Shown in pieces: positions 26,269-40,793 of a stretch of DNA of 64,000 nucleotides; within the stretch, counting starts at the first letter, position 1; every line of letters begins with the position of its first letter. The notes beneath the pieces are model-generated. The model worked only from the letters and a program-made list of their open reading frames with translations. It had not been told where the DNA came from and did not search any database. The DNA lies in NCBI GenBank assembly GCA_029213165.1, contig JARGNO010000003.1:53980-117979 (forward strand), written 5' to 3'. The translations under genes and the position numbers were made by a program. The DNA comes from Minwuia sp. (GTDB lineage: Bacteria; Pseudomonadota; Alphaproteobacteria; Minwuiales; Minwuiaceae).

Positions 26269-27699
26269 TCATACGGCCTTTGCCACAGGGTCCACGCGGC
26301 GCAGTTCCCTGCATGTGTCCTGCCGCAGGACCTCCCCCATCAGGACCAGGGAAGGCTGTTCTTGATCAAGTTCACCGATCGAAGTCGCGGCCTCAGCCAG
26401 TGTCGAATGCACCCAGGCCTCATCGGGTCGGGAAATGCTGACCCCGACTGATACGGGTGTCGAGGCACAGGCGCCCCGCGCCATGGCCTCCGCACTGAAG
26501 GCCGCCAGGCGGCCACGCCCCATGTAGAGTGCGATGGTCGTCCGCTCGGAAGCGACCGCCTGCCAGTCGATCTCCGCCGGGCCGTCTCCTCTCCCATGAC
26601 CTGAAACATAAAGAAGCTGCCGACCGAAATGCCGGTCGGTCAGTGTCTTGCCGATGCTGGCCGCAGCCGCCGAGGCGGTGGTGATGCCAGGCACGATGCT
26701 GACATCAATCCCGGCGTCTCGCAGTGCCCGCACCTCTTCCCCGCCACGGCTGAAGATTGCAGGGTCTCCCGCCTTCAGCCGGACAACGTGCTTCCCCTCC
26801 CCCGCGAACCGGATCATCAGACGATTGATCTCTTCCTGCTTGCAGGATGGACGCCCGCCGCGCTTGCCAACCGGCATCCGCTGCGCCTCCCGCCGGGCCA
26901 GTTCCAGGATATCGTCGGAAACCAGTGCGTCGAACAGCACCACATCCGCATCCTGCAGCGCCCGGATCGCCTTCACAGTCAGCAGATCCGGATCACCCGG
27001 ACCGGCGCCGACCAGCGTGACCCGCCCGCTCTCTCCCCCGAAGACCGGCATGGCATCGTTCGCGACTGCCGGCAGTTCCGCGCCGGACATTGCGGTGTCG
27101 GCAAAGCGGGTCCACCAGGCGCGGCGCAGGCTGGGCAGTGGCAGCGCAGTCCTGACCGTTGCACGCATCGCCCGCGCCCACATACCCCATGCGCCAAGGT
27201 TGCGCGGCAGCAGACGCTCCACCTTCTGCCGGATCGCCTGCCCCAGAACCGGGGCGGTGCCATCGGTGGAGATACCAACCACGACAGGCGAACGATTGAC
27301 GATGGATCCGAACTGCACGGTGCAGAACGCCGGGCGGTCGATCTGGTTGATCGGCACACCCCGTGCGACCGCCGCATCAAACAGCGCCCTTGCCTGCGTC
27401 TCCGCCTCGACATCCGCGACGACCAGCGCGAACTCCGACAGCCGGGCAAGGACGGCATCGAATTCCGACCGCAGCAGCGCATGCTGCATGATCAACGCCC
27501 TGACTTCCGCGACCGGGCGTTCGGCAACCAGCGTCGGCACCGCTCCGGTAGCCAGCAGCAGTTCCAGCTTCCACGCCACGGCTTCGGAGCCACCGACAAC
27601 CAGAACGGGGCGGTCCTGCAACCGATGGAACAAGGGCAGCACAGCGATCGGCGCGATGCGCTCCACCGCTTTCTCAGACAGCTTCCGCGACCTGCGCAT
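26269..27699 (-). CDS. cysG: Siroheme synthase CysG (uroporphyrinogen-III C-methyltransferase / precorrin-2 dehydrogenase)
   Basis: N-terminal RPVLVVGGSEAVAWKLELLLATGA; C-terminal VTLVGAGPGDPDLLTVKAIRALQDADVVLFDALVSDDIL. Confidence 0.93.
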   Translation of the reverse strand: MRRSRKLSEKAVERIAPIAVLPLFHRLQDRPVLVVGGSEAVAWKLELLLATGAVPTLVAERPVAEVRALIMQHALLRSEFDAVLARLSEFALVVADVEAETQARALFDAAVARGVPINQIDRPAFCTVQFGSIVNRSPVVVGISTDGTAPVLGQAIRQKVERLLPRNLGAWGMWARAMRATVRTALPLPSLRRAWWTRFADTAMSGAELPAVANDAMPVFGGESGRVTLVGAGPGDPDLLTVKAIRALQDADVVLFDALVSDDILELARREAQRMPVGKRGGRPSCKQEEINRLMIRFAGEGKHVVRLKAGDPAIFSRGGEEVRALRDAGIDVSIVPGITTASAAAASIGKTLTDRHFGRQLLYVSGHGRGDGPAEIDWQAVASERTTIALYMGRGRLAAFSAEAMARGACASTPVSVGVSISRPDEAWVHSTLAEAATSIGELDQEQPSLVLMGEVLRQDTCRELRRVDPVAKAV

Positions 27700-30346
27700 T
27701 GCTCAGCAGCCTCCCGATCTCGCTCTGGCACGACCCGCATCCGGTTCCCGCGCCCGTGACCTTACCAACAGCCTGGACACTGCAGGCACCACCTGCGACT
27801 GCCGCGCTGATGGCGCGGGTGCCCACGTTGTTGCAGGCACAGACCATGACCCCGGGCCCCGCGTTCGCGTCTGCCGGGCGACCGGCCAGCAGACGGGCAC
27901 GTTGCGCAACCTCGTCGAATGTCTCGCCGAGACAGGAGAGCAGCCATTCACGCTCGACAGCGACCGGGGCAGGGGCGGCGAGGAACGCGCCGATCAACCG
28001 GTTCCGTCGGAAGGCGGCCAGCCGATAGAGGCCGAGGTGGTTGTCCAGAAACTGCAACCGCTCCAGCCCGTCCCCGGATGCAAGGCCAAGGAAGCGGTCG
28101 GTCAGCCGGGATTCCGGAACATCGCCGCGCCCTGCGCATTCGAATCTGTAGCCAGCCCCTGACCGAACAGCGGCCCAATAGTCGGTGCCTGCAAGGTCGG
28201 GGCGTTCGAGACTGGCACCGAAACCGTACCAGTCGGCCTCGTGGCGTTGCACCGACACGCGGGACGACTTCAGGGCGGGCTGACCGGACACGGGATCGAC
28301 GACACCTCGCACCAGCGCATCGACTCTGGCCGTCACAGCCGTCTGGCCCGTCCAGTGCATCGGGCTGAAGACCGTGCCTGGCTGCTGCGCGTCCGTGATC
28401 AGTGCCCGCGCCACCAGCCGTCCGCAGTCATTCGAGAGCCGGACGAGATCTGCTGCCCTGATGCCTGTACGCTTCGCATCAGCCGGATGCAGCGCCACAT
28501 ACGGCTCAGCCAGATGCTGGGAGAGCCGGGCAGACCGGCCGGTGCGTGTCATCGTGTGCCATTGGTCCCGCACCCGCCCCGTGTTCAGGACGAAAGTCGC
28601 GGAATCTGCCCCAACCGGCGCAGGTGAAAGGGTCGGGACGAACCGTGCCTTCCGGTCAGGCGTAAAGAACCGGCCATCCGAGAGGATCTGTCCATCTTGG
28701 CGCGACGACTGGTTCGGGACCGGCCATTGCACCGGCGACAGACGGTCAAACCCGCCGCGCCCCAGCCCGACAAGTCCGCCGATATCGAAATCACGCTGCC
28801 CGACATTGTCCAGGGCAGAGAGCCGGGCATGTTCGTCGAAGATCGCGGCAGGTCCGGAGTAATCGAAGGCCTGCCGGAACCCCATTGCCTTGGCGACATC
28901 ACAGATGATGCGCCAGTCCGGGCGGGCTGCGCCGGGCAGCGGGCGAAAGCCGCGCTGCCGACTGATACGGCGTTCGGAGTTGGTGACGGTTCCGTCCTTC
29001 TCGCTCCAGCTCGCGGCAGGCATCAGGACATCGGCAACTTCGACGGTATCGGTGCGCCGCTCGACATCGGACACGACGACCAGCGGACAGGCCTTCAGCG
29101 CGCGGCGCACCCGATCAGCATCCGGCATGGTGACCGCCGGATTGGTGGCCATGATCCAGACAGCCCTGATCCGGCCGGCCTCGATCGCGTCGAACAGGTC
29201 AACCGCCTTCAGTCCGGCCCGCGTGGCCATGGCAGGGGCCTGCCAGAACCGCTGTACCCGCGCCCGGTCCTCCGGATTCTCGATCTCCATGTGTGCGGCA
29301 AGTTGGTTGGCAAGCCCGCCGACCTCCCGCCCCCCCATCGCGTTCGGTTGGCCGGTGATGGAGAATGGCCCCATGCCGGGACGCCCGACACGTCCGGTAA
29401 GCAGATGGCAATTGATGATGGCATTCACCCGATCCGTGCCGTCTGCCGCCTGGTTCACTCCCTGACTGAAGACAGTCACGGTCTTGCGGTGCGCTGCAAA
29501 CATTTCCCGGAACGCCGCAATCTGCGCCCGGCTGAGACCCGTCAGCGCTTCTGTCTCAGCCTGCTGCGTCACCTCGGCCGTGCGCAGGGCGTCTTCCAGC
29601 CCATTGGTATGCTGCGCCACGAAGGCCGCATCGGCATGTCCCTGCTCCGCCAGCCAGACGAGCAGATTGCTGAACAGCGCAACGTCGCCGCCGCTGCGGA
29701 TCGGCAGGTGCAGATCTGCAAGTTCCGCCGTCGGTGTCCGTCGCGGGTCGATGACAACGATCTTCATTCCGGGTCGCGCATTCCGCGCCGCCAGCAGCCG
29801 CTGGAACAGCACCGGATGACACCAGGCCAGGTTGGAGCCAACCAGAACGACCAGATCCGCCTGCTCCAGATCCCCATAGGAAACCGGCACGACGTCGGCG
29901 CCGAAAGCCCGCTTGTGCCCAGCCACTGCGGAGGCCATGCAGAGACGGGAATTGGTGTCGATATTGCCCGAGCCGATGAAGCCCTTCATCAGCTTGTTGG
30001 CGACGTAGTAGTCCTCCGTCAGCAACTGGCCGGAAACATAGAAGGCGACCGAGTCGGGGCCATGTTCCGCGATCGTGCGACTGAATCCGTCCGCGACCCT
30101 TGCGATGGCTTCATCCCATGTTGCGGGCTGCCCATCGATCTCCGGTGCCAGCAGTCGCCCATCCAGCCCCAGGGTCTCCCCGAGCGCCGCCCCCTTCGAG
30201 CACAGACGACCGAAATTCGCCGGGTGATCCGGATCCCCCTTTATCTCCACCGAGCCATCGGGTCTGGCGGTGGCCAGCACGCCACAGCCCACCCCGCAAT
30301 AGGGGCAGGTGGTGCGCACGATGGGGGACGCGGCGCTGTCAGGCAT
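27674..30346 (-). CDS. nasA: Assimilatory nitrate reductase catalytic subunit with C-terminal BFD-like [2Fe-2S] domain
   Basis: RTTCPYCGVGCGVLATA, Mo-bisMGD motifs, C-terminal VCACNNVGTRAISAAV...GTGCGSCQSEIGRLL. Confidence 0.93.
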   Translation of the reverse strand: MPDSAASPIVRTTCPYCGVGCGVLATARPDGSVEIKGDPDHPANFGRLCSKGAALGETLGLDGRLLAPEIDGQPATWDEAIARVADGFSRTIAEHGPDSVAFYVSGQLLTEDYYVANKLMKGFIGSGNIDTNSRLCMASAVAGHKRAFGADVVPVSYGDLEQADLVVLVGSNLAWCHPVLFQRLLAARNARPGMKIVVIDPRRTPTAELADLHLPIRSGGDVALFSNLLVWLAEQGHADAAFVAQHTNGLEDALRTAEVTQQAETEALTGLSRAQIAAFREMFAAHRKTVTVFSQGVNQAADGTDRVNAIINCHLLTGRVGRPGMGPFSITGQPNAMGGREVGGLANQLAAHMEIENPEDRARVQRFWQAPAMATRAGLKAVDLFDAIEAGRIRAVWIMATNPAVTMPDADRVRRALKACPLVVVSDVERRTDTVEVADVLMPAASWSEKDGTVTNSERRISRQRGFRPLPGAARPDWRIICDVAKAMGFRQAFDYSGPAAIFDEHARLSALDNVGQRDFDIGGLVGLGRGGFDRLSPVQWPVPNQSSRQDGQILSDGRFFTPDRKARFVPTLSPAPVGADSATFVLNTGRVRDQWHTMTRTGRSARLSQHLAEPYVALHPADAKRTGIRAADLVRLSNDCGRLVARALITDAQQPGTVFSPMHWTGQTAVTARVDALVRGVVDPVSGQPALKSSRVSVQRHEADWYGFGASLERPDLAGTDYWAAVRSGAGYRFECAGRGDVPESRLTDRFLGLASGDGLERLQFLDNHLGLYRLAAFRRNRLIGAFLAAPAPVAVEREWLLSCLGETFDEVAQRARLLAGRPADANAGPGVMVCACNNVGTRAISAAVAGGACSVQAVGKVTGAGTGCGSCQSEIGRLLSNAQVAEAV

Positions 30347-30695
30347 CCGCGCCCACCGCGCCTGCCCGCAGGCAATCGCCACTCAGCAGGATACGGCCAT
30401 CCTCGACGCGGGTGGGGTAGGTTGTGACCCGACCGCTGTCCGCCCCCTGCGCCTCCCCCGACTCCAGGCTGATGACCCAGTTGTGCAACGGACAGGTGAC
30501 GGACGCCCCATGCACGATGCCCTGGCTCAGCGGTCCCTGCTTGTGCGGGCAACGGTCCTCCAGCGCGAAGACCTGGTCATCGACCGTACGGAATACCGCA
30601 ATGCAGCCCTGGGGCAGGCGCAATACGCGCCCGCCACGGCGCGGGACATCATCAAGTGCCGCAATGTCCAGCCAGCGTTCTGTGGTGTGCTGCAT
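30339..30695 (-). CDS. nirD: Nitrite reductase small subunit (Rieske)
   Basis: DRCPHKQGPLSQGIVHGASVTCPLHNWVISLESGEAQGAD. Confidence 0.92.
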   Translation of the reverse strand: MQHTTERWLDIAALDDVPRRGGRVLRLPQGCIAVFRTVDDQVFALEDRCPHKQGPLSQGIVHGASVTCPLHNWVISLESGEAQGADSGRVTTYPTRVEDGRILLSGDCLRAGAVGADA

Positions 30696-33139
30696 CAGGC
30701 CACGGCCTCCAGATCAGGGGTTGCGAGGGAAGTGAATTCGTGGGCATCGCGACCGGCGGCCCGTTCCGACCAGGGATCGGTCTGGGCGAACTGCTGGGCA
30801 AAATTGAAGCGGTCGACCAGCGCCTGGCGATTCTCGGCATCGCCGACGATGGCCTGTTGCACATGCTCCATGCCGACGCGCGCCAGCCACTTGTGCATCC
30901 GGTCGAGATAATGGGCTTCTTCCCGGTAGAGCTGCAGCAGGGCGACGCAGTATTCCATCACCTGCTCTTCCGTCTCGACCTTGCAGAGCGGGACGGTTTC
31001 CTTGACTTCCATGCCTGCGGCCCCGGCGAACAGCAGTTCGTAGCCACTGTCCACACAGATCACGCCGAAGTCCTTGATGGTCGCCTCCGAGCAGTTTCGC
31101 GGACAGCCGGAGACGCCCATCTTCACCTTGTGCGGTGTCCATGCTCCCCAGAGGAAGCGTTCCATCCGCACCCCCAGCGAGACCGAGGCCTGGGTACCAA
31201 AACGGCACCATTCACTGCCGACACAGGTCTTCACCGTGCGCAGCGCCTTGCCATAGGCATGACCGGAGACCATGCCAGCGGCGTTCAGGTCGGACCAGAC
31301 CGCCGGCAGGTCATCCTTCTTCACGCCCAGCAGGTCGATCCGCTGCCCGCCCGTGACCTTCACGGTCGGGATGGCGAACTTGTCGGCCACATTGGCGATG
31401 GTGCGCAATTCGTCCGGCGTGGTGATGCCCCCCCACATGCGTGGCACGACCGAGTAGGTGCCATCCTTCTGGATGTTGGCGTGGACCCTTTCGTTGATGA
31501 AGCGGGACTGCTGGTCATCGACATACTCACCGGGCCAGGTGGCCAGCAGGTAGTAGTTCAGCGCCGGGCGGCACTTGGCGCAGCCACAGCTCGTCTGCCA
31601 TTGCAGTTCCTGCATCACCGCCGGAATGGACTTCAGCGCCTTTGCGATGATCAGGCGACGGACCTCCCCGTGGCCCAGATCCGTACAGCCGCACATGGAC
31701 TGGACTGCAGGGCGCGCGTAGGACTCGCCCAGGCTGAGTTCCAGCAATTGTTCCACCAGCCCCGTGCAACTGCCGCAGGACGACGATGCCTTCGTGGTCG
31801 CCCGCACCCCGTCCAGATCGCTCTGACCTGCGGCGATGGCGTCGACGATGACACTCTTGCAGATGCCGTTGCAGCCACAGATCTCGGCGTCATCCGCCAA
31901 GGCTGCAACGGCCGCCATAGGGTCCAGCGGGCCCGCTCCCGCAAAACCCTGTCCGAAGATCAGGGTCTCGCGCATGTCGGAGATATCGGTGCCGTCCTTC
32001 ATCAACTGGAAGAACCAGGGGCCATCCGCCGTGTCGCCATAGAGAACCGCACCAATGATGCGATTGTCGCGAAGCACCAGCCGCTTGTAGATCGCGTGAC
32101 TGGCGTCCCGCAGCACGATCTCCTCCCGGTCATCGCCCTCCGCGAAGTCCCCGGCGGAATAGAGATCGACGCCTGTCACCTTCAGCTTCGTCGCCGTGAT
32201 GGAGCCTTCGTAGGTCAGGCTGTCATCCCCCGCCAGTCCAGCCCCCACTGACTTCGCCATCTCGTAGAGCGGCGCGACCAGGCCGTAGCAGGTGGCCCGG
32301 TGCTCGACGCATTCGCCCACGGCATAGATCGCCGGATCACTTGTCTGCATCAGGTCGTTGACCAGAACCCCGCGATTGACCTCCAGCCCGGCATCCCTGG
32401 CCAAGGCGATGCTCGGCTTGATGCCGACGGCCATGACCACGATGTCCGCCGGGATTTCCGTTCTATCGTCCAGCCGCACGGCCTCGACCTTGTCATCACC
32501 CACGACCGCGTGGGTGTTGGCGCGGGTAATGACCCTGATCCCGCGATCCTCGATCGCGCGTTGCAGCAGGTATCCGGCACTCTGGTCCAGTTGCCGCTCC
32601 ATCAGCGTCGGCATCAGGTGCAGCACGGTGACTTCCATGCCCTGCGCCTTCAGCCCCGCCGCCGCCTCCAGCCCCAGCAGGCCGCCGCCGATGACAACCG
32701 CGCTGCCGCCCTTCCGTGCCTGGGCCAGCATGGCTTCGACGTCGTCCAGATCGCGGTAGCTCAACACGCCCGGCAAATCGTGGCCCGGGACCGGAATGAT
32801 GAAGGGCAGTGATCCCGTGGCGATGATCAGCCGGTCGTATTCGGCAACCGTACCGGCGCGGGAAATCACCCGCTGGTCGGCCCGGTTGATGGCAATGACT
32901 TCCTCCCCCCGGATCAGGTTGACCCGGTTCCGGACGTACCAGTCATCGTCATGGATCAGGATATCCTCATAGGCCTTCTCACCCGAAAGCACCGGAGAAA
33001 GCATGATCCGGTTGTAATTGACCCGGGGTTCGGCGTTGAAGACCGTGACCTCATAGCGGTCCGGCTCCCTGCGGAACAGCTCCTCCAGCGCACGGCCAGC
33101 GGCCATGCCGTTGCCGATGACGACAAGCTTCTCAGTCAT
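30695..33139 (-). CDS. nirB: Nitrite reductase [NAD(P)H] large subunit
   Basis: MTEKLVVIGNGMAAGRALEEL FAD motif; BFD-like CGCNGICKSV; siroheme/4Fe-4S signature GVSGCPRNCSEATIKDFG. Confidence 0.95.
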   Translation of the reverse strand: MTEKLVVIGNGMAAGRALEELFRREPDRYEVTVFNAEPRVNYNRIMLSPVLSGEKAYEDILIHDDDWYVRNRVNLIRGEEVIAINRADQRVISRAGTVAEYDRLIIATGSLPFIIPVPGHDLPGVLSYRDLDDVEAMLAQARKGGSAVVIGGGLLGLEAAAGLKAQGMEVTVLHLMPTLMERQLDQSAGYLLQRAIEDRGIRVITRANTHAVVGDDKVEAVRLDDRTEIPADIVVMAVGIKPSIALARDAGLEVNRGVLVNDLMQTSDPAIYAVGECVEHRATCYGLVAPLYEMAKSVGAGLAGDDSLTYEGSITATKLKVTGVDLYSAGDFAEGDDREEIVLRDASHAIYKRLVLRDNRIIGAVLYGDTADGPWFFQLMKDGTDISDMRETLIFGQGFAGAGPLDPMAAVAALADDAEICGCNGICKSVIVDAIAAGQSDLDGVRATTKASSSCGSCTGLVEQLLELSLGESYARPAVQSMCGCTDLGHGEVRRLIIAKALKSIPAVMQELQWQTSCGCAKCRPALNYYLLATWPGEYVDDQQSRFINERVHANIQKDGTYSVVPRMWGGITTPDELRTIANVADKFAIPTVKVTGGQRIDLLGVKKDDLPAVWSDLNAAGMVSGHAYGKALRTVKTCVGSEWCRFGTQASVSLGVRMERFLWGAWTPHKVKMGVSGCPRNCSEATIKDFGVICVDSGYELLFAGAAGMEVKETVPLCKVETEEQVMEYCVALLQLYREEAHYLDRMHKWLARVGMEHVQQAIVGDAENRQALVDRFNFAQQFAQTDPWSERAAGRDAHEFTSLATPDLEAVA

Positions 33140-33186
33140 GGCTGCAAACTCCTGCAATCGTGCGGTGCGACTTCTGCGACCGCATT

Positions 33187-34197
33187 TCAGAAATACCAGG
33201 CGACAACGTCGCTCAGGCTGTCGGTTCCATGGATCGGCAGCGCCACCAGTGACCGGAACCCGGCGCGGGCAGCGGCCCGTTCAAGAATGTCGGTGCTGGC
33301 GGCAAGGTCGGCGACGACCTCCGGCACGCCTGTGGCGGCAACCCGCGTCAGCACGCAGTCGCCATCCCGCACCAGCAGCTCCACGTCGTGCCCGCTCGGC
33401 GTGCCTTCCAGTTCGCAGACCCCGTCCCGGAACTTCATCCACCGCCGGTCAAGTACCGACCAGATCTCGAAACGCCGCGCGATGGGCGTACCCCGTGCAG
33501 ACAACAGGGCCAGCACAGTGGTGCCGGTGGTGTGGCTGGCCACGGGAAAAGCCAGCCCGAACGTCAGACCTGCCTTTTCCGCACTCTCGGAGCGGATGAA
33601 ACGGCGGCTGTTGCCCAGGTCATGCATCAGTTGCGGCCGACCGCTGGCCCAGACCTGGCCGGGGAGACCCATGCCCTTCGGGAAACGCGTCCGCTTCGAG
33701 ATCCACTCGAAATGCGCGGCGGTTCCGAAATAGCCGTCCACCAGACCCATGGTGTCGCCCGACTCATCACCGCCGTGCCAGAGTTCGATGGCACCCACAT
33801 GCTCCGCATCGTCACCGCAGAGAAAGACGACAACGCCCATCAGCTCGTCGCGATGAGAGAAGACCGGGATGGCCAGACCAACCGTCAGCCCCTCCCGCTC
33901 TGCCGCTTCGGTGCGCCTGAAGTAACTGCCACGAAATCCCTTCAGCATGACCGGCGCACGCGACTGCCAGGCTCTGCCCGGCAAGCCTTCACCCATGCCG
34001 AAGCTTTCCTGATCGCTGACCTGCGCGAAGCCGGTCATCGATCCATGATAGGCAGAGGCGAGAGTGAGCCGATTGCTGGACGGATCCAGCGTCCACACTT
34101 CAGTGGCGCGCACGAATGCCCTGGTGTCCCCTGCCTGAACAGGTGCCGCCTCGGTCACGGCTGATCCCATCAGACCTTTCAGCATTCCGGTGTTCAT
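33187..34197 (-). CDS. Tandem GAF-domain protein in nitrate assimilation operon
   Basis: Two internal repeats: [15 protein letters not shown]...[13 protein letters not shown] and [15 protein letters not shown]...[13 protein letters not shown]; no recognised output domain. Confidence 0.7.
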
Positions 34198-35927
34198 GCT
34201 GCCTCATCCCGCTTGGAAACGGTGTCTGCCGGCGCCTCCTCAGGCTTCGGCTCCGGCGTTGCGCCGTGCTCGTATTCCTCCAGGAAGGACAGCAACTGCT
34301 CGCGGTAGAGGTAATAGTCCGGGTGCTCCAGCAGGGCCTTGCGGGTGCGGGGGCGCGGCAGGTCCACCTCCATGATCCGGCCAATCGTGGCGTTCGGCCC
34401 GTTGGTCATCATCACCACGCGGTCTGCGAGCAGGATCGCCTCATCCACGTCATGCGTGACGCAGATCGCCGTGACCTGGGTCCGCTTCCAGACATCCATC
34501 AGGACTTCCTGCAGTTCCCAGCGTGTCAGGCTGTCCAGCATCCCGAAGGGTTCATCCAGCAGCAGCAACTTCGGCGAAAGGGCGAAGGCACGCGCGATCC
34601 CGACGCGCTGTTTCATGCCGTTGGAGAGATCGGCTGCCAGCCGGTCCATGGAATCCCCCAGACCGACACGGGCAAGGTAGTACTCGACGATGTCCGACCG
34701 CTCCGCAGCCGTGGCATTGGGGAACACCCTGTCCACGCCGATGGAGACATTCTCCCGCGCCGTCATCCAGGGCATCAGGCTTGGTGCCTGAAACACCACC
34801 GCGCGCTCCGGCCCCGCACCCGAGATCTCGCGACCATCCAGCACCACACTGCCCGACGAGATCTCGTTCAGACCCGCGGTCATGGACAGAACCGTTGACT
34901 TGCCACAACCCGAATGCCCGATCAGGGAGATGAACTCCCCCTTGCGCATCTTCAGTTCGACGCCATCGACGACGGTCAGTGGCCCCTTCGGCGTCGGATA
35001 GACCTTCTTCAGGTTGATGAATTCGAGGAAGCGGTCCTCGCGCGGGCTTTCGGCAGCCTTCAGATAGGCTTCGGGCGGCAGGTCCTCGCCGCCCTGCTGC
35101 GTGATCGGGACGACATTGGGCAGGACAAGCGTGTCCTCGACATTCGCGCCACGTTCCAGGCCCACCCGCATCAGGTACTGCGTGATGTCAGCACGCAGAC
35201 GCTTGAAACCGGCGTCATGGTTCATCGCCGTCCGCTCCCTGGGGCGCGGCAGGTCCACCCTGAACTCCGGTCCGAGTGTCGCGTTGGGGCCCGGGTTGAG
35301 CGGAATGATCCGGTCGGCGAGCAGGATCGCCTCATCCACGTCATTGGTGATCAGCAGAACGGTCTTGCGGTCCTGCTGCCAGATGCGGGTGATCTCGTCC
35401 TGCAGATTGGCGCGGGTCAGCGCGTCCAGCGCCGAGAGCGGTTCGTCGAGCAGCAGGATTTCAGGACTCATGGCCAGGGCGCGCGCCACGGCAACCCGCT
35501 GGCGCATGCCACCGGAAAGCTCCGCAGGCTTGCGGTCGACGGCGTGCGACAGGCCCACCATGTCGATGTAGCGGGCAACCCGCGCCGCGCGTTCCGCCCT
35601 GCTCTCCGACGAGAAGACGGAGTCGACGGCCAGCGCCACATTGCCCTCCACCGTCAGCCAGGGCATCAGCGAATAGCTCTGGAAGACGACGCCACGCTCC
35701 GGATCCGGACCCTTCACGCGCTTGCCCTTCAGCAGGATCTCGCCCGCATCCGGTTCGATCAGCCCGGCAATGGCGCTGATCAGTGTCGTCTTGCCGGAGC
35801 CGGAGAAGCCGACGATCGCAATGAACTCGCCCTCCTCAACCGCCAGATCGATGCCGTCCAGAACGATGGAGCGATCCACCCCGACGCCATACCCCTTAGT
35901 CAGTCCATTGAGTTCAAGAAATGCCAT
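34194..35927 (-). CDS. Nitrate ABC transporter ATP-binding protein with two fused cassettes (NrtC/NrtD-type)
   Basis: Two Walker A motifs ([32 protein letters not shown]) and two signature motifs ([32 protein letters not shown]). Confidence 0.9.
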
Positions 35928-35939
35928 GATCCGCCCCCC

Positions 35940-37025
35940 TCACCGCGTTGCCGAGTGGGTGAACATGGTCTGCAGCGCCAGCATCACGCGATCCAGCAGG
36001 AAGCCGATGATGCCGATGGTGAAGACCGCAACGAGGATCTTGGCGAGGGACGACGAGGAACCGTTCTGGAACTCGTCCCAGACGAACTTGCCCAGCCCCG
36101 GGTTCTGCGCCAGCATTTCCGCCGCAATCAGCACCATCCAGCCAACACCGAGAGACAGGCGCAGTCCGGTGAAGATCAGCGGCATGGCAGAGGGCAGGAC
36201 CAGTTTCACGATCTGCTTCGACCAGGACAGTTGCAGCACCCGACCGACATTCATCAGGTCCTTGTCGATGGAGGCCACGCCATAGGCCGTATTGATCAGG
36301 GTCGGCCAGAGCGAACAGAGCATCACGGTTATCGCGGAGACCACGAAGGACTTCGGAAACAAGTCGCTGTTGCCGGCGTAGACCGCCGAGACGACCATCG
36401 TGACCAGCGGCAGCCAGGCCAGCGGCGAGACCGGCTTGAAGATCTGGATCAGCGGATTGACCCCGGCATTCACGGCCCGCGAAAGCCCGCAGACGATACC
36501 CAGCGGCACCGCCACGACGGTTGCCAGCAGAAAGCCGAAGCCGACCGTGACCAGGCTGGTCCATATCTGGTCGAGATAGGTCGGTGCGCCGGTGTAGTCG
36601 CGCCATTTGATGCGGTCCTGCTTGCCCTGCTCGGCAAGCTTCGCGTTCCGCTTCTCCTGTCGCTCCATGAACGCTGCTTCCTTGCCGCGTTCGCGCACAT
36701 GGTCGGCGTAGAGGTTCTCCACCTGCTCCCAGACGCCCGCCGGACCAGGTATGGCCCCAAGCGAGGTATTCACCAGCGGCGCCGTCTGCGCCCAGACAAA
36801 CAGGAACAGCAGGATACCCAGCACTGGCATGCCGAGACCGCGCCCCAGTTCCTTCATCTGATGACCGACCGGATCTCCGGCGGCGATCTTCAGCAAGGGC
36901 GTGACCCAGCCAAGTGCCAGCATGTTGAGGTAGGTGTCTGCCCGGCCAATCCAGGTGAACATCCGCTCAGTGCGGCGTTGCCTCGCTGCTTCGGCAGTGC
37001 TGTCAATATCGCTTGCGACGCTCAT
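35940..37025 (-). CDS. nrtB: Nitrate ABC transporter permease
   Basis: SPLAWLPLVTMV...LRLSLGVGWMVLIAAEML binding-protein-dependent permease signature; operon context. Confidence 0.9.
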   Translation of the reverse strand: MSVASDIDSTAEAARQRRTERMFTWIGRADTYLNMLALGWVTPLLKIAAGDPVGHQMKELGRGLGMPVLGILLFLFVWAQTAPLVNTSLGAIPGPAGVWEQVENLYADHVRERGKEAAFMERQEKRNAKLAEQGKQDRIKWRDYTGAPTYLDQIWTSLVTVGFGFLLATVVAVPLGIVCGLSRAVNAGVNPLIQIFKPVSPLAWLPLVTMVVSAVYAGNSDLFPKSFVVSAITVMLCSLWPTLINTAYGVASIDKDLMNVGRVLQLSWSKQIVKLVLPSAMPLIFTGLRLSLGVGWMVLIAAEMLAQNPGLGKFVWDEFQNGSSSSLAKILVAVFTIGIIGFLLDRVMLALQTMFTHSATR

Positions 37026-37130: not shown

Positions 37131-38534
37131 TCAGCCGTCAACCACGCTGCTGCCTTCGACCTTCTCGGAACCCTTCAGGCCGATCGGGAACTGCTCCAGA
37201 TAGGCGTTGGGCTTGCGGCCATCGAAGGTGATGCCATCGATGAACTCGGTCTGGGCAGGCTTGAAACCATCGGTATCCCAGGGGAAGTCCGCCTTGTCAG
37301 CCAGACCTTCCTCCACCAGCAACTTCGCGGCGGAGAGATAGATGTCCGGGCGGTAGACCTTGGCCGCGACGTCCTTGTACCAGGCATCCGACTTGCCATC
37401 GGTGATCTGGCCCCAGCGGCGCATCTGGCTGAGATACCAGATCGCATCGGAGTAGTAGGGGTAGGTCGCGAAGTAGCGGAAGAAGACGTTGAAGTCGGGG
37501 ACGTCGCGCTTGTCACCCTTCTCGTACTCGAAGGTTCCGGTCATCGAGTTGGCGATGACCTCCCGGTCGGCCCCGACATATTCGGAACGGGACAGGATAT
37601 CGACCGCTTCAGGCCGGTTGGCATTGTTGTTCTCGTCCAGCCACATGGCGGCGCGGATCAGTGCCTTGGTTACCGCCACGGCCGTGTTGGGATACTTCTC
37701 AGCGAATTCGGCGGTGATCCCGAAGACCTTTTCGGGATTGTCCTTCCAGATCTCGTAGTCGGTGATGACCGGAACACCGATCCCCTTGAACACGGCCTGC
37801 TGGTTCCACGGCTCGCCCACGCAGTAGCCGTGGATGGTGCCGGCCTCCAGCGTTGCCGGCATCTGCGGCGGCGGCGTCACGGACAGCAGCACATCCGCCT
37901 GGATCTGCCCCGTGATGTTCTCACCGGAATAATAGCCGGGATGCAGGCCACCAGCGGCCAGCCAGTAGCGCAATTCATAGTTGTGGGTCGAGACGGGGAA
38001 GACCATGCCCATCTTGAAGGCCTTGCCATCATTGCGGAAACGGTCGACGACGGGCTTCAGGTAGTCGGCCTTGATCGGATGCACGGGCCTGCCGTCCGCC
38101 TGCAAGGGAATGTTGGGCTTCATCTCCGCCCAGACCTCGTTCGACACGGTGATGCCGTTGCCGTTCAGATCCATGGAGAACGGAGTGATGATATGCGCCT
38201 CGGTACCGAAACCGATGGTCGCGGCCAGCGGCTGACCGGCCAGCATGTGGGCGCCATCCAGTTCGCCGGTGATCACCCGATCCAGCAGAACCTTCCAGTT
38301 CGCCTGCGGCTCCAGCGAGACGAAGAGTCCCTCATCCTCGAAGTAACCCTTCTCGTAGGCGATGGCGAGCGGCGCCATGTCGGTCAGCTTGATGAAACCG
38401 AAGGTGAGTTCGTCCTTCTCGACATCCAGCATCTCGGCCTGCGAGATACCGGGTGCGCCAATGCCTGCGATGGCGAAGGCGGCCAGTGCCACGAATGCAC
38501 CATCTCTGATGCGACTGAGCAGTGAATGGGTCAC
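37131..38534 (-). CDS. nrtA: Nitrate ABC transporter substrate-binding protein
   Basis: [67 protein letters not shown]-terminal hydrophobic leader; GTG start assumed. Confidence 0.9.
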
Positions 38535-38602
38535 GTCCCTCTGTCTCCCTCTGTCCCGGATCCGGTTGCGCCGGACCCTCCGCCCGGTCATCGACCAGGC
38601 AC

Positions 38603-38660
38603 AAAAAAAGCCGCCCACCTTTTCCGGCCCCGCTGGATGCGGTTCCTTCAAGGTGGCGGC
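38603..38660 (-). terminator. Intrinsic terminator in nrtA leader overlapping third hexaloop hairpin
   Basis: Minus strand GCCGCCACCTT ... AAGGTGGGCGGC TTTTTTT, 11 bp with one bulged G; loop contains CCGC-ATCCA-GCGG. Confidence 0.82.
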
Positions 38661-38718
38661 CTTGCCACGGACGACCCGTCAATGGATCGCTATGTTTCGG
38701 GACACCGTCGTTGGCGTC
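38653..38718 (-). promoter_or_regulatory. ANTAR-type leader RNA with three hexaloop hairpins
   Basis: Minus strand: GACGCC-AACGAC-GGTGTC (38718-38701), GCGATCC-ATTGAC-GGGTCGT (38690-38671), GTGGC-AAGGCC-GCCAC (38668-38653); all loops 6 nt with A1 and G4. Confidence 0.75.
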
Positions 38719-38731
38719 TTGCCCCTGTCCT

Positions 38732-38749
38732 ATTCAAGCCCTGTGCCAG
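38732..38749 (-). promoter_or_regulatory. Candidate sigma-54 -24/-12 element upstream of nrtA leader
   Basis: Minus-strand CTGGCACAGGGCTTGAAT; matches TGGCAC-N5-TTGC except GA in place of the -12 GC; about 14 nt upstream of first leader hairpin. Confidence 0.45.
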
Positions 38750-38869
38750 AGCAGATTTTCATTTTTTATTATCCAATTCAATTGATTAGGATGCTGATTG
38801 AAAAATGGCCAAATCAGATATTCGCTCGATTCTTGTGCATCGCGGCAAATTTTTTGTGCAACTGCTGCT

Positions 38870-40063
38870 TCAGCGAACAGTGGGTCGAAGCTCACCGAGA
38901 TAGCGGCGGACATTGTCCGGATCGAAGTAGTGGCCATCCATCAACGGGGCATGATCACGCCCATTCACACCGGCCGGAAACCCGGCAGCACCGGCCAGGA
39001 GGTCGGCGCGATAGACTTCGCCAACCATCTGCACGGCCTGTTCGCTGTAATCGACCTGTCCCCACCGCATCATCTGGCTCAACACCCAGGTTGCCGCATC
39101 CGCATCGGGCAGGTTCATCCGCCCGCCACCGAAGCGCAGGAAATCCGGGGCCTGCCGGATGGTCCCGTCCGGGTGGATCACAAGGTTGCCGGTCAGCGCC
39201 CGGCGCAGGATGCGCACGGGCGCGCCGACATGCGCCTCATCCGCAAGCAGGCTCACCAGATCATCGCGATTTGCCGGGTCCTGACACCATTCCGCGCCCG
39301 CATGAAGTGCCCGCAGCAATCGCCGCAGCAGATCCGGATGACGTTCCGTCCAGACCTTGCGGGCACCAAGCACCTTCTCCGGCGCATCGGGCCAGATGTC
39401 GTGTTTCAGCGCCACGATCGCGGCCAGTCCCGCATCGACCGCCAGACTTCCCCAGGGTTCGCCGACACAGAAACCATCGACCTGCCCGGCGCGCAGGCTG
39501 TCCACCATCATCGACGGCGGAATGACGACAATGCGCACATCCGTATCCGGGTCGATGCCGGAAGCCGCAAGCCAGTAGCGCAACTCGTAATTGTGGCTGG
39601 AGAACGGGAAGACCATGGCCAGCACCAGCGGCGCCTCGCCAGCCGCCGCGCGCTGTCTGATCAGGTCGCGCAGGGCCAGGCCGGCAGCCAGCGGGCCGTC
39701 CCGCCAGCCCTGCCCTGTCCCGTCGAGTCCTGCAAAAAGGCCACGACTGAGCGCGATGACATTGCCACCCCGTCCGAATGCAAAACTCGCGACCGTCGGC
39801 ACCTTCAGATGATTGATGCCCAGGGACGCGGCAAGCGGCATCCCCGCCAGCATCTGCGCAACATCCAGGTGACCGACGTTGATGCGGTCGCGGATGCTGG
39901 CCCAGGACGGTTGTCGCAGCAGGCGAAGATCGATGGCCTCCGCCGCCGCCATGCCGCGCCGCGCCGCGACGATCAGCGGTGCCGCGTCCACCAGCGGCAG
40001 GAAGCCCGCACGCACGACTTCGTGGCCATCGCGGCCCCTATCCATGTTCATGTCGATTTCCAC
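38870..40063 (-). CDS. nasS: Nitrate/nitrite sensor NasS (NrtA-like, no obvious signal peptide)
   Basis: GFLPLVDAAPLIVAARRGMAAAEAIDLRLLRQPSWASIRDRINVGHLDVAQMLAGMPLAASLG; immediately downstream of nasT. Confidence 0.88.
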   Translation of the reverse strand: MEIDMNMDRGRDGHEVVRAGFLPLVDAAPLIVAARRGMAAAEAIDLRLLRQPSWASIRDRINVGHLDVAQMLAGMPLAASLGINHLKVPTVASFAFGRGGNVIALSRGLFAGLDGTGQGWRDGPLAAGLALRDLIRQRAAAGEAPLVLAMVFPFSSHNYELRYWLAASGIDPDTDVRIVVIPPSMMVDSLRAGQVDGFCVGEPWGSLAVDAGLAAIVALKHDIWPDAPEKVLGARKVWTERHPDLLRRLLRALHAGAEWCQDPANRDDLVSLLADEAHVGAPVRILRRALTGNLVIHPDGTIRQAPDFLRFGGGRMNLPDADAATWVLSQMMRWGQVDYSEQAVQMVGEVYRADLLAGAAGFPAGVNGRDHAPLMDGHYFDPDNVRRYLGELRPTVR

Positions 40064-40205: not shown

Positions 40206-40793
40206 TCAGGCAAGCAACTCGGCCGCTGTCACCACGCTTCGGGCAATATCGGCAATCTTCTTCTTCTCGTTCATCGCGGTGCGGCGCAGCAGGCCATAGG
40301 CGGCCGGTTCATCGACCCCCTTGCTGCGCATCAGGATGCCTTTCGCACGCTCGATGATCTTGCGGTCCTCCAGTGCGCCCCGCGTCTCCTCCAGTTCCGC
40401 ACGCAGGCGGGAGAAGGCGTTGAAGCGGCTGATCGCCATGTCGACGATGGACCGGACACGCGACTGCACCAGACCATCGACGATGTAGGCGGACACGCCC
40501 GCCTCAATGGCCTGGTCGATCATGGCCCGGTCGGAATGGTCCACGAACATGGCAATCGGGCGACGCACGTCACGGCTGACCTGGAACATCTGTTCCAGCA
40601 CGTCACGGCTGTGATCCTCCAGATCGATCACGATCACATCGGGGTCCATGGCGAAGATCCGGCGCTGCAGATCGAAGGTATCCGTGATCAGGTGCGCATC
40701 CACCTCCCCCGCGCCCGTCAGCCCGTCCACCAGAATGGCCGCACGGACGGGATTGCTGTCGATTACCGCGACTTTGAGAGCTTCTTTTTGCAT
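40206..40793 (-). CDS. nasT: ANTAR-domain response regulator NasT (antiterminator)
   Basis: Receiver-like N-terminus; C-terminal ANTAR helix bundle EDRKIIERAKGILMRSKGVDEPAAYGLLRRTAMNEKKKIADIARSVV. Confidence 0.93.
   Translation of the reverse strand: MQKEALKVAVIDSNPVRAAILVDGLTGAGEVDAHLITDTFDLQRRIFAMDPDVIVIDLEDHSRDVLEQMFQVSRDVRRPIAMFVDHSDRAMIDQAIEAGVSAYIVDGLVQSRVRSIVDMAISRFNAFSRLRAELEETRGALEDRKIIERAKGILMRSKGVDEPAAYGLLRRTAMNEKKKIADIARSVVTAAELLA

Follow-up and report, generated by a model that had tools for sequence, protein, structure and literature searches.

A nitrate-responsive antitermination leader with three ANTAR hairpins, controlled by NasT, is likely encoded between nasS and nrtA in Minwuia sp. 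(contig JARGNO010000003.1). In this leader two upstream hairpins (H1 and H2) would serve as alternative or jointly used partners of a third (H3). The stretch of DNA analyzed, referred to here as the window, spans 64,000 nucleotides. The best reading is a three-hairpin variant of the known NasS/NasT leader type, of which no description was found in the open-access literature searched.

Direct reading of the sequence places the three hairpins on the minus strand of the 335-bp nasS-nrtA gap, exactly where and as the original prediction had described them. H1 (38701-38718; GACGCC-AACGAC-GGUGUC) is followed after 10 nt by H2 (38671-38690; GCGAUCC-AUUGAC-GGGUCGU) and this after 2 nt by H3 (38653-38668; GUGGC-AAGGCC-GCCAC). 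All have A1 and G4 in the hexaloop and a C:G closing pair. An intrinsic terminator hairpin (38610-38660, minus strand) is formed by the arms GCCGCCACCUU (38660-38650) and AAGGUGGGCGGC (38621-38610) and runs into a U7 tract (38603-38609). It folds at -31.3 kcal/mol and is present in the minimum free energy structure of the full leader. Since positions 38653-38660 serve the terminator as well as H3, where they lie in the loop and the 3' arm, the two structures are mutually exclusive, which agrees with what had been claimed for the third hairpin. H1 and H2 fold compatibly with the terminator, and H2 has no overlap with it.

These features are shared with the dual-hairpin ANTAR RNAs (EutV/eutP, NasR/nasF, and AmiR/amiE; Ramesh et al., 2012, PMC3369931), which likewise have short stems with A1/G4 hexaloops and C:G closing pairs, an intrinsic terminator that excludes the last hairpin, a nitrogen gene downstream, and an ANTAR gene nearby. 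Mutation of EutV targets (PMC3369931) and SELEX with NasR (PMC7496416) had established this loop and closing-pair signature. ANTAR target RNAs have at least two stems of at least 3 bp with such hexaloops, of which the last overlaps an intrinsic terminator; the leader has three, and H3 is the one that overlaps. It departs from the exactly dual arrangement, however, as three hairpins stand in register with two conserved sites 5' of H3, and it is therefore a variant rather than a textbook member. The spacing also differs. In EutV targets the linker must be 5-12 nt long, and one of 3 nt cripples activity (PMC3369931). The 10-nt H1-H2 linker falls inside this range and the 2-nt H2-H3 linker outside it, although an actinobacterial survey of ANTAR RNAs accepted linkers of 2-25 nt (PMC8164766).

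The surrounding genes are those of a NasS-NasT operon. Along the minus strand nasT and nasS come first, and the gap is followed by nrtA, nrtB, nrtCD, the gene of a GAF-like protein, nirB, the nitrate reductase gene, and a gene resembling siroheme synthase. nasT (40206-40793) encodes an ANTAR antiterminator with a REC-like domain (Pfam PF03861, E 8e-21); the genome has no other ANTAR gene. nasS (38870-40063; PF13379) adjoins both nasT and the target operon and encodes a cytoplasmic nitrate sensor related to NrtA, in which no signal peptide was seen by eye. The presence of both regulators just upstream, as first suggested, was thus borne out by Pfam matches. The first gene 3' of the leader is nrtA (37131-38534; PF13379), encoding the substrate-binding protein of a nitrate ABC transporter that is 95% identical to a protein of a Minwuia thermotolerans MAG. 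A GTG start at 38534 is preferred; the nrtA frame stays open through the terminator up to a TTG at 38651 (38534-38651, minus strand), and automatic calls could start nrtA inside the leader. Downstream are the nrtB permease (35940-37025; PF00528) and the fused nrtCD ATPases (34194-35927; NCBIfam TIGR01184, nitrate transporter ATPase, 601 bits). A nirB-like assimilatory nitrite reductase (30695-33157) and a molybdopterin-type assimilatory nitrate reductase (27674-30382) were assigned by eye from translations of their open reading frames, and the nirB-like gene, lying on the same strand, is likely in the same operon as the nrt genes. Between nrtCD and nirB, inside the nitrate operon, a 336-aa protein (33187-34197, minus strand) shows tandem GAF-like repeats by eye. 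The original assignment of this element to the NasT-responsive antitermination leaders of the ANTAR type, with the nitrate operon as its target, is supported.

When 6 kb around the leader were scanned with Rfam, no ANTAR-type match appeared, just sub-threshold chance ones. By itself the three-hairpin stretch has an unremarkable fold energy (z -0.65), so stability is no argument here, and the evidence lies in the loop signature and its conservation. The ordinary fold energy is what would be expected of chance hairpins in a GC-rich spacer next to an ordinary terminator, but this reading is scarcely credible in light of the shuffles, the covariation, and the recurrence of the hairpins at fixed positions. 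When the 60 nt 5' of H3 were shuffled with dinucleotide content preserved, two non-overlapping A1/G4 hairpins upstream of H3 arose in only 2 of 20,000 shuffles.

Covariation of the stems in homologous leaders, by which the original prediction was to be judged, was found among same-genus and wider relatives. Two same-genus relatives carry nasS, namely L013 (counted once with G001) and L004 (from G003; NasS 62% identical). All 18 pairs are kept in the three same-genus leaders. H1 shows a two-sided change from G-C to A-U in L013 and H2 one from A-U to G-C in L004, A1 and G4 being retained in both cases; this comparison involves only three sequences, and 63 of 500 shuffles reach its covariation. 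The loops of H1 (AACGAC, AACGAG, and AACGGA) and of H2 (AUUGAC, AUUGAC, and AUUGCA) are constant at positions 1 and 4 and drift at positions 5 and 6. The H3 loop is AAGGCC in two of these leaders and GAAGCU in L004, with G1 in place of A1. When all leaders were aligned with MAFFT for the wider comparison, H1 was misplaced, and these alignments gave way to an anchored one whose linkers were padded with N. Nine leaders aligned in this way (A5) have nine pairs changed on both sides, with no shuffle out of 500 reaching the covariation score, although pair counts are inflated as these leaders were chosen for visible H1 hairpins.

Further analysis of alphaproteobacterial nrtA leaders revealed which hairpins are kept by which lineages. 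A scan for NrtA gave 80 loci from named genomes, and the 52 leaders with a clear H3 were analyzed, scoring hexaloops with a purine at position 1, G4, and a C:G or G:C closing pair. Hairpins were found at two fixed sites 5' of H3: 40 leaders have the H1 site, 30 the H2 site, and 19 both, compared to shuffle means of 1.5, 1.0, and 0.02, respectively. Stricter search criteria led to the same result, with 31-33 matches for the real loop signature versus 0-3 for altered ones. In the Rhodobacterales-type leaders H1 is present in 28 of 29, and the H2 site mostly holds a plain TCCCA/TGGGA-like stem. Among the others (Rhizobiales, Sneathiella, and relatives), H2 is found in 21 of 23 and H1 in 12; Rhizobiales leaders mostly keep H2 and H3, and many of them have a non-ANTAR stem in place of H1. 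All three hairpins occur in Minwuia, a Rhodospirillales MAG, a Rhodospirillum MAG, Cohaesibacter, the Roseibium group, Thioclava, and others. The data do not support a common origin of the three-hairpin layout, which on the NrtA tree needs at least 10 label changes, four of them forced by well-supported branches. In several hexaloops of L024, L028, L043, L070, and L079, G replaces A at loop position 1 and G4 is kept, and these sequences suggest that the A1 rule may be a purine-1 rule in Alphaproteobacteria.

The most conserved part across these leaders is the H3 loop signature with its C:G closing pair. H3 is the constant canonical P2, and the two upstream sites come and go. The third hairpin had been taken for the extra one; it is instead the P2 that overlaps the terminator, and the surplus is one of the two upstream hairpins. 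Three hairpins in register do go beyond the dual-hairpin norm, as had been pointed out, but the layout is less unusual than supposed, recurring across Alphaproteobacteria in 19 of 52 leaders. Attention should accordingly shift from the third hairpin to the upstream pair, and from this single leader to the class. The suggestion of two NasT binding modes is plausible, and the split of relatives into H1+H3 and H2+H3 leaders fits it; graded antitermination, suggested alongside, is more conjectural.

The same split invites another explanation, in which this is an ordinary two-hairpin leader where NasT uses H1+H3 or H2+H3 and the remaining hairpin serves as a structural spacer or is left over from evolution. 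Two hexaloops evidently suffice elsewhere, as Rhodobacterales swap H2 for a plain stem and many Rhizobiales swap H1 for a non-ANTAR stem. A left-over should lose its loop signature, however, and in the Minwuia relatives both H1 and H2 vary in stem pairs and at loop positions 5-6 but preserve A1/G4. Moreover, the H1 signature is retained in nearly all of 18 nirB leaders described below. We regard this explanation as unlikely, though it deserves to be kept in mind.

These nirB leaders were found with a covariance model (R1) built from the nine leaders. The covariance search over related genomes, which had been proposed as a check, recovered both the window and further triple leaders. In this genome the window (3.6e-14) is the sole match of R1 below about E 1. 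Matches were found in 12 of 387 genomes of the class, 22 of 75 of one family, and 12 of 398 of the phylum, some of them false. Several matches in coding regions (e.g., L107, L108, L126, L128-L130, L132, L136, and L139) were rejected as false positives, having neither a terminator nor a good sigma-54 box. About 22 clear triple leaders lie outside the training set; 18 precede nirB, three precede nrtA-like genes, and one precedes a porin-like gene. Those before nirB (L104, L105, L111, L113-L125, L127, and L131) come from one alphaproteobacterial genus and form two sequence clades. In 12 aligned nirB leaders all cells are paired, and H1 contains two-sided changes. Many of the non-training triple leaders have a terminator U-tract within the scanned distance; in the second nirB clade none was seen within that distance. 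In most of them a sigma-54 box lies 26-33 nt before H1, which would put the transcript start at H1.

A sigma-54 promoter is also predicted in the window (TGGCACAGGGCTTGAA, 38733-38748, minus strand). Its -24 element is intact and its -12 element has GA for GC, giving a consensus score of 19 out of 23, on a scale where random sequence rarely exceeds 20. In L004 a box at the same place (TGGCATCGCGGTTGCA) scores 22/23, and relatives score 20-23/23 at a roughly equal distance from H3. This distance is 71-80 nt 5' of H3 in most non-Rhodobacterales leaders, with a few at 60 or 92; in Rhodobacterales leaders no sigma-54 box was seen at that place. The predicted transcript start in the window (~38722) lies 4 nt before H1, so that H1 would form the 5' end of the transcript. 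A start downstream of 38653 would have spoken against the original prediction; the predicted one is upstream of all three hairpins. Upstream of the sigma-54 box of L004, a sequence close to an NtrC site was observed (2684-2720; TTGCACAAACGGTGTGCA), and a weaker version of it (TTGCACAAAAAATTTGCC) occurs in the window near 38860.

Among the closest described systems is the nasA leader of Paracoccus denitrificans (PMC3795266, PMC5424462), which shares the order nasT-nasS-leader-nitrate operon and has its hairpins in the nasS-nasA gap. There, nitrate releases NasT from NasS, the released NasT having a size of about six monomers (roughly hexamers), and addition of nitrate to NasS-NasT leads to binding of NasT to the nasA leader (PMC3795266). 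That leader was described with two hairpins, HI and HII, whereas the window has three. Mutation of HI, 137 nt before nasA, abolishes nasA induction, whereas mutation of HII, 91 nt before nasA, has little effect (PMC5424462). The nasA leader of the related Paracoccus ferrooxidans (L144:6743-7031) was found to contain three A1/G4 hexaloops, 159, 134, and 111 nt before nasA. As its outer loops are 48 nt apart, compared to 46 nt between HI and HII, HI is probably H1, a mapping made via the P. ferrooxidans sequence. No run of five or more T and no U-tract terminator was seen in this leader, whose terminator may be unusual or factor-dependent. The Klebsiella NasR/nasF leader (PMC7496416) is likewise a nitrate-responsive ANTAR antitermination element with a P1P2 pair closed by C:G, but it has two hairpins and a one-component NIT-ANTAR regulator.

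From these parallels and the anatomy of the leader we infer the following course of events. Under nitrogen shortage, transcription from an NtrC/sigma-54 promoter would begin some 4 nt ahead of H1. As long as nitrate is absent, NasS would hold NasT, and the terminator would form at the expense of the H3 loop and 3' arm. Nitrate would free NasT, which would bind the hexaloops; H3 held closed would prevent the terminator, and nrtABCD, nirB, and nitrate reductase would be transcribed. H1 and H2, which emerge first and are separated by a canonical 10-nt linker, could be loaded with NasT before H3 appears. NasT on H1+H2 would then capture H3, and antitermination efficiency should rise. Such early loading and later capture is suggested by the linkers, since the 10 nt between H1 and H2 fit the 5-12 nt rule and the 2 nt between H2 and H3 do not.

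For this reason H2+H3 may fall short of a classical pair in this leader; there are, however, Rhizobiales leaders that combine a similar H2-H3 spacing with the lack of an H1 hexaloop, which argues that H2+H3 can work. H1 and H2 are probably alternative or avidity partners for H3. The G at the start of the L004 H3 loop and the imperfect -12 box of the window also count against the three-hairpin model. The former, together with the permitted H1-H2 linker (PMC3369931), would suit a leader in which H1+H2 is the sole NasT dimer site and H3 is the 5' side of the terminator with a coincidental loop, bound NasT blocking termination through RNA polymerase contact or sterics. This is quite improbable, as the H3 signature and closing pair are the best conserved of all leader parts and H2 has no overlap with the terminator.

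Returning to the three-hairpin leader, a broader proposal can be put forward tentatively, as one more likely to need revision than to stand unchanged. Alphaproteobacterial NasT leaders would form a three-site class of ANTAR RNA, in which NasT dimers or a larger oligomer pair H3 with H1 or H2. Lineages would have repeatedly dropped one site, and those that keep all three would load NasT co-transcriptionally on H1+H2 and hand it off to H3, resulting in cooperative or graded antitermination. A three-site class would agree with the report of roughly hexameric free NasT and would depart from the accepted ANTAR rule of a hairpin pair at tight spacing. It would also offer a better search model for alphaproteobacterial nitrate regulons, which models built on the standard two hairpins may overlook or break up. 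As a natural experiment, lineages with H1+H3, H2+H3, or all three hairpins could help to tell which of them an ANTAR protein requires and how far apart they may lie.
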